A stretch of 36,461 nucleotides of DNA from Spirochaetia bacterium (lineage in GTDB: Bacteria; Spirochaetota; Spirochaetia; B11-G9). The DNA lies in NCBI GenBank assembly GCA_029932585.1, contig JAOZPU010000006.1, positions 1 to 36,461 of the forward strand, given 5' to 3'. Below are positions 9,967 to 11,151 of this stretch, one piece after another (position 1 is the first letter of the stretch; every line of letters begins with the position of its first letter). The position numbers were made by a program, and so were the translations under genes. A model generated the notes under the pieces. The model was given only the letters and a program-made list of their open reading frames with translations. It had not been told where the DNA came from and searched no databases.

Positions 9967-10006
9967 AAAAAAAAGGACTGTTCCATTGAGGACAGTCCAT
10001 TTTTTA
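9967..10006 (-). terminator. Rho-independent, potentially bidirectional terminator
   Basis: Perfect 7-bp stem GGACTGT/ACAGTCC (9975-9981 / 9992-9998) flanked by an A-run on one side and a T-run on the other; lies just downstream of the 56-aa ORF. Confidence 0.8.
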
Positions 10007-10024: not shown

Positions 10025-10195
10025 TTACATAAGATCTTTAGGTTTTCGGGCAGTGTTACCGCTTTTTTCACAAACAGCTACATGCTTCAACTTTCCATCT
10101 TTAAAAACAGTCTTCATCTTTATATTACCACCCCATTTGCTTATAAGGGTATGAGCACCTTCACGACGGGCATTTTTTGATACTGGTCCAGCCAT
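10025..10195 (-). CDS. Small highly basic protein (56 aa), unassigned; ribosomal-protein-like composition
   Basis: Not in the supplied ORF track. MAGPVSKNARREGAHTLISKWGGNIKMKTVFKDGKLKHVAVCEKSGNTARKPKDLM*; preceded by a strong SD (CAGGAGGAAGTTATG). Confidence 0.8.
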   Translation of the reverse strand: MAGPVSKNARREGAHTLISKWGGNIKMKTVFKDGKLKHVAVCEKSGNTARKPKDLM

Positions 10196-10279
10196 AACTT
10201 CCTCCTGATTATGAGTTTTTTGTAATGAATTAAATAGAAATGAACATCACAAAAAAACCCGATATCTATAACAGAGGCT

Positions 10280-10308
10280 ATACTAGTGAAATTTACAGAT
10301 TTTATCAA
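10280..10308 (-). promoter_or_regulatory. Candidate sigma70 promoter for the 56-aa protein gene
   Basis: Minus strand TTGATA (10308-10303), 17-nt spacer, TAGTAT (10285-10280). Confidence 0.45.
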
Positions 10309-10359: not shown

Positions 10360-10662
10360 ATGAATTTTTCTAAAAATATACTTAATATTATACGATTTAT
10401 TTTTATTTTACCTATAATTGTATATCAAAAACTTATATCGCCATTATTGCCAGGATCATGTATTTACTATCCAACATGTTCTCATTATTCAAAAAGCTCA
10501 ATTATGGATCATGGCATATTAAAAGGTCTGCTACTTTCAATTTCAAGAATACTACGCTGTACTGGAAGTTTATTTACAGGGGGAGAAGATCCGGTTCCAA
10601 AAGATTTTTCTTTCAAATATATCTCCAGAAGTTACAAAAACTTCTGGAAATATAAAAAATAG
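10360..10662 (+). CDS. yidD: Membrane protein insertion efficiency factor YidD
   Basis: LISPLLPGSCIYYPTCSHYSKSSIMDHGILKGLLLSISRILRC...GGEDPVP. Confidence 0.93.
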   Translation: MNFSKNILNIIRFIFILPIIVYQKLISPLLPGSCIYYPTCSHYSKSSIMDHGILKGLLLSISRILRCTGSLFTGGEDPVPKDFSFKYISRSYKNFWKYKK

Positions 10663-11151
10663 TTACTGATTCATTTCACGAGCTGCATCAAAGCCAGCCT
10701 TATAACCTTCTTTAAAGGCTTCACTAAATGCTTCTCTGTATCCTTCGCTATAACCATCATTGTATCCGGTATCATAATCACCATCAGAATATTCATCATC
10801 ACCATATTCGTCATCATAATCATCAAAAGTAAACTCAATAGATCTGCTGTTTGGATCTGAAAGATCAATTTCGAACCTGGAGTATTCATCACCATCTGAA
10901 TCTACAGCCATGGCATCAAAAATCAGATCCGCATCTTCATAATCCGGTATAGAAATAGTAACAGTATCACCATCACCTACAGTCTGACCATTTAGAAGAT
11001 CATCGTACCAGTCATCATGACTGGTTGGCGAAACATACAACTCAGAAATCTCATAACCGGTACTATTAATAAAAAGAACGCCATTAAGAGCCTGCCCAAA
11101 AATTACAACACTTAACAATAAAAATAATAAAACAAATAATCTCCCTTTCAC
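10663..11151 (-). CDS. Secreted acidic protein with C-terminal (G/A)(Y/F)xx tetrapeptide repeat
   Basis: Signal peptide MKGRLFVLLFLLLSVVIFGQA; Asp-rich linker; GYNDGYSEGYREAFSEAFKEGYKAGFDAA. Confidence 0.6.
   Translation of the reverse strand: MKGRLFVLLFLLLSVVIFGQALNGVLFINSTGYEISELYVSPTSHDDWYDDLLNGQTVGDGDTVTISIPDYEDADLIFDAMAVDSDGDEYSRFEIDLSDPNSRSIEFTFDDYDDEYGDDEYSDGDYDTGYNDGYSEGYREAFSEAFKEGYKAGFDAAREMNQ

Follow-up and report, generated by a model that had tools for sequence, protein, structure and literature searches.

The window analysed here, a contig stretch of 36,461 nucleotides from a member of the Spirochaetia, carries on its minus strand an open reading frame that begins with ATG and encodes 56 amino acids before a stop codon. 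By direct count the product holds 13 lysines and arginines against 4 aspartates and glutamates. The sequence-only reading of the same DNA had pointed out this unlisted frame and its basic composition, and both are confirmed, with the letters as it gave them. The frame is a real, conserved gene. It stands beyond chance because its protein is matched in 38 of 40 relatives and because pairwise pN/pS within the genus, from Nei-Gojobori counts, amounts to 0.06-0.14; a search for homologues in relatives and a ratio of the dN/dS type were both tests that the earlier reading had named. The features of the locus are collected in Table 1.

Table 1. Features of the bL38 locus, with the evidence for each
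Feature	Position	Strand	Evidence
bL38 gene by sequence and predicted fold, one-cysteine form, homologue of Borrelia BB0162	10025..10195	-	ORF, PDB match, profiles, fold, conservation, pN/pS
Shine-Dalgarno sequence AGGAGG	10201..10206	-	5 bases ahead of the ATG; kept in all 5 genus members compared
Promoter TTGATA-N17-TAGTAT	10280..10308	-	not above chance alone; conserved in sisters
Intrinsic terminator	9967..9998	-	9-pair stem at 9975-9998, then T run; z -5.5
Inverted repeat in 5' leader	10213..10260	-	part of the genus only; single copy in the genome
Conserved, divergently oriented neighbour yidD; context, outside the bL38 unit	10360..10662	+	PF01809 1.3e-22; synteny

The expression signals proposed for the gene from its letters are largely borne out. 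The textbook Shine-Dalgarno sequence is in place, and so is the strong terminator hairpin with the T run after it. The hairpin folds far better than shuffled sequences; comparable hairpins lie 3' of the gene in L002 and L003. The promoter is present with both hexamers and spacer as described, but the match alone is at chance level, since the region holds 6 promoter-like matches against 5.1 in shuffles, which is no excess. Support for the promoter comes instead from four sister genomes (L003, L004, L005 and L019), which keep TTGATA-N17-TATTAT, the second hexamer being TATTAT and not TAGTAT. Between promoter and Shine-Dalgarno sequence, the window genome and the sisters L003 and L019 have an inverted repeat of 15-17 bp. 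The repeat is absent from three other sister genomes, in which promoter and Shine-Dalgarno sequence follow each other more directly. It occurs once in the genome and may therefore be a regulatory structure of the leader. A search of Rfam returned sub-threshold matches only, and a search of plasmid sequences gave no match.

The conserved context of the gene consists of the divergent yidD followed by udk, an arrangement seen in the window's family and in Sphaerochaeta-type genomes. The rpsF-ssb-rpsR-rplI operon, whose proximity had been offered as support for a ribosomal role, adjoins the gene only in the window genome and one sister (G001) among the loci read. This adjacency is local and not conserved, and we discard it as functional evidence. 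The interval 10663-11151 on the minus strand encodes a protein of 162 residues whose start resembles a signal sequence and whose acidic tail is rich in Asp and Tyr; it has no Pfam match, and across the window's family its gene retains a place between yidD and udk.

Sequence, profile and model comparisons agree in identifying the product as the spirochaetal ribosomal protein bL38 of the BB0162 type. A phmmer search of the PDB gave a single significant match, at E 1.2e-13, to the 50S protein bL38 of Borrelia burgdorferi (8fmw/8fn2), with residues 11-55 of the window protein aligned to residues 1-45 of the 46 resolved in the chain. Family profiles built from 20 and from 33 relatives match the same protein at 3.2e-23 and 5.9e-21. 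The AlphaFold model of the window protein is of moderate confidence (mean pLDDT 74), and a fold search with it found only one PDB match below E 0.001, the bL38 chain Ai of 8fmw (E 4e-5, TM 0.68/0.81, 59% identity); the predicted fold is that of the solved chain, in which a short helix comes after a beta hairpin. In Borrelia the rRNA-contacting basic spine of bL38 is described, in the accessible text of PMC10618245, as K34, K36, R49, K50 and R52. These residues align with K35, K37, R50, K51 and K53 of the window protein, lysine or arginine throughout. Across the 72 tabulated sequences, R50 never varies and position 35 holds either lysine or arginine. The suggestion of a small ribosome- or RNA-binding protein is thus supported, and the Borrelia bL38 that the sequence-only reading named for comparison without claiming it turns out to be the match. 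No model in Pfam or NCBIfam covers the window protein. Weak matches to zinc-ribbon proteins and to bL31 (best values 4e-4 and 0.003) came from four-cysteine relatives only and are expected from the CxCG motif, and kinship with either was rejected. A weak match to bL28 (E 0.85) is at chance level.

Borrelia bL38 is BB0162, a protein previously without annotation as ribosomal, which was identified from its cryo-EM density and by mass spectrometry (accessible text of PMC10618245). It binds helices H95 and H97 of 23S rRNA together with uL6 and uL14, the reported uL6 contacts being T111 and E114, and an influence on GTPases is suggested by its discoverers (same source, PMC10618245, as far as accessible). 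By homology, the gene in the window almost certainly encodes bL38 as a small structural component of the large subunit, placed and bound to rRNA as in Borrelia. The protein would lie next to H97 and to the helix of the sarcin-ricin loop, H95, in contact with both uL6 and uL14. Its basic row of K35, K37, R50, K51 and K53 would hold rRNA from the beta hairpin and then the short C-terminal helix, so as to clamp the region of the sarcin-ricin helix to the two proteins. It likely stabilises the factor-binding site at its base, and may also modulate the encounter of translational GTPases with the sarcin-ricin loop. We infer from the Borrelia case that the protein is made and bound to ribosomes in the window organism.

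The uL6 sequences are in keeping with such a contact. The uL6 of the window genome has T and E at positions 111 and 114. Among 59 class genomes that bear bL38, 49 have T or N at position 111, and 7 of 8 genomes of other classes without detected bL38 have H there; the pattern fits a bL38 contact, with the reservation that the genomes are related and the comparison is not independent evidence. In bL38 itself, none of the 72 tabulated sequences departs from S-K-N at residues 6-8, and the nine N-terminal residues that include this motif are unresolved in the hibernating-ribosome structure of Borrelia.

The gene has its own transcription unit, apart from the large ribosomal protein operons, which would suit a descendant of bL38 that has left the ribosome and now acts, for instance, as a small regulator binding RNA or other nucleic acid. 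Scattered single ribosomal protein genes are common anyway, however, and the gene is the only bL38 copy in its genome, retains the residues that contact rRNA and evolves under strong purifying selection; we consider a departure from the ribosome highly improbable. Small size and basic charge would equally befit an unrelated protein or bS22, but sequence and fold both match bL38, and at the E-values obtained we regard such an origin as refuted. A bS22 protein is very short and binds 16S rRNA. Borrelia bS22 consists of lysine and arginine to 61% (PMC10618245, accessible text), against 13 such residues among the 56 of the window protein, and no bS22 chain was matched in the PDB searches; bS22 was rejected on these grounds.

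As judged from sequence matches, bL38 is near-universal in the class. A profile of 33 family sequences, run against a genome sample of the phylum, matched 215 class members, and one listed class member (G173) gave no convincing match. A further 159 genomes of the sample were unmatched and appear, by kinship ordering, to lie outside the class. In this sample the profile detected no bL38 in other classes of the phylum apart from one marginal match (G131, E 0.008). In a scan of genome contigs, the best 80 of 239 relatives are all spirochaetes by title. Five class genomes (G016, G023, G418, G422 and G425) have uL6 without a bL38 match. Some of these absences are probably assembly gaps, since the ribosomal operon of G425 is nearly identical to that of G035, which has the gene; given the class genomes without a match, bL38 may also be dispensable. 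In G001 the gene lies in two pieces on two contigs. Two diverged four-cysteine paralogues occur in G239 (L055, L056), and G377 has two bL38 matches of equal score.

The tabulated sequences fall into two cysteine forms. Forty-three carry four cysteines (CxCGG...CxxC), among them those of G031 and G012, and 29, including the window protein and the Borrelia-type members, carry one in an R/K-WGG...C context. The window protein has a single cysteine, C42, and lacks three of the four at zinc-ribbon positions. Intermediates have three (G028) or two (G032), and the protein of G361 has one cysteine and is otherwise of the four-cysteine type. From its motif, the four-cysteine form is zinc-ribbon-like and a putative zinc binder. 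In a tree of bL38 the one-cysteine sequences group together with support of 0.996, a value to be read with caution for so short a protein. In a FastTree species tree of five proteins, the window's one-cysteine clade lies inside a mostly four-cysteine clade (supports 0.94-0.98), and the remaining one-cysteine lineages arise in other parts of the tree, whose basal nodes are weakly supported. Gene transfer and differential loss could each account for the form in the window's clade. A fuller scheme would have bL38 present class-wide in zinc-ribbon and zinc-free forms, the one-cysteine clade of the window arising within the four-cysteine region by transfer or differential loss, and the S-K-N tail active near the factor-binding site; taken as a whole we regard it as tentative and rather doubtful.

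bL38 is already known from the Borrelia ribosome, and the window gene is a further member of its family. The literature searched, mostly non-subscription papers, contained neither the class-wide spread nor the division into two cysteine forms. A ribosomal protein identified among spirochaetes only in Borrelia, by cryo-EM and mass spectrometry, is thus a near-universal gene of its class that has no Pfam or NCBIfam model. The predicted zinc-ribbon form is directly checkable, and the results could aid annotation and work on ribosome structure in a phylum with several pathogens.

The closest known counterpart is bL38 of Borrelia burgdorferi (BB0162, O51184; 8fmw, 8fn2), which is of the same length class and predicted fold as the window protein. 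The two have in common a W-G-G turn, a single cysteine, the basic spine and a C-terminal R-K-P-K/R-D-L, and an S-K-N-A start in members of the Borrelia family adds to the likeness. Identity between the window protein and bL38 of the Borrelia family is about 54-63%. They differ in the last residue, M in the window protein and F in Borrelia, and in the neighbouring genes. The bL38 of Flavobacterium johnsoniae sits at a comparable site of the 50S subunit but is displaced by 14 A and internally different from that of Borrelia, according to the accessible text of PMC10618245. Compared through our searches only, the Flavobacterium protein was not among the PDB profile matches or the top 50 fold matches, so that common descent of the two is conjectural. 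Several ribosomal proteins, such as uS14, bL31, bL33 and bL36, exist in C+ and C- forms. Such a pattern is not reported for bL38 in accessible text. Like these proteins, bL38 is a small ribosomal protein with four cysteines in some lineages and fewer in others.
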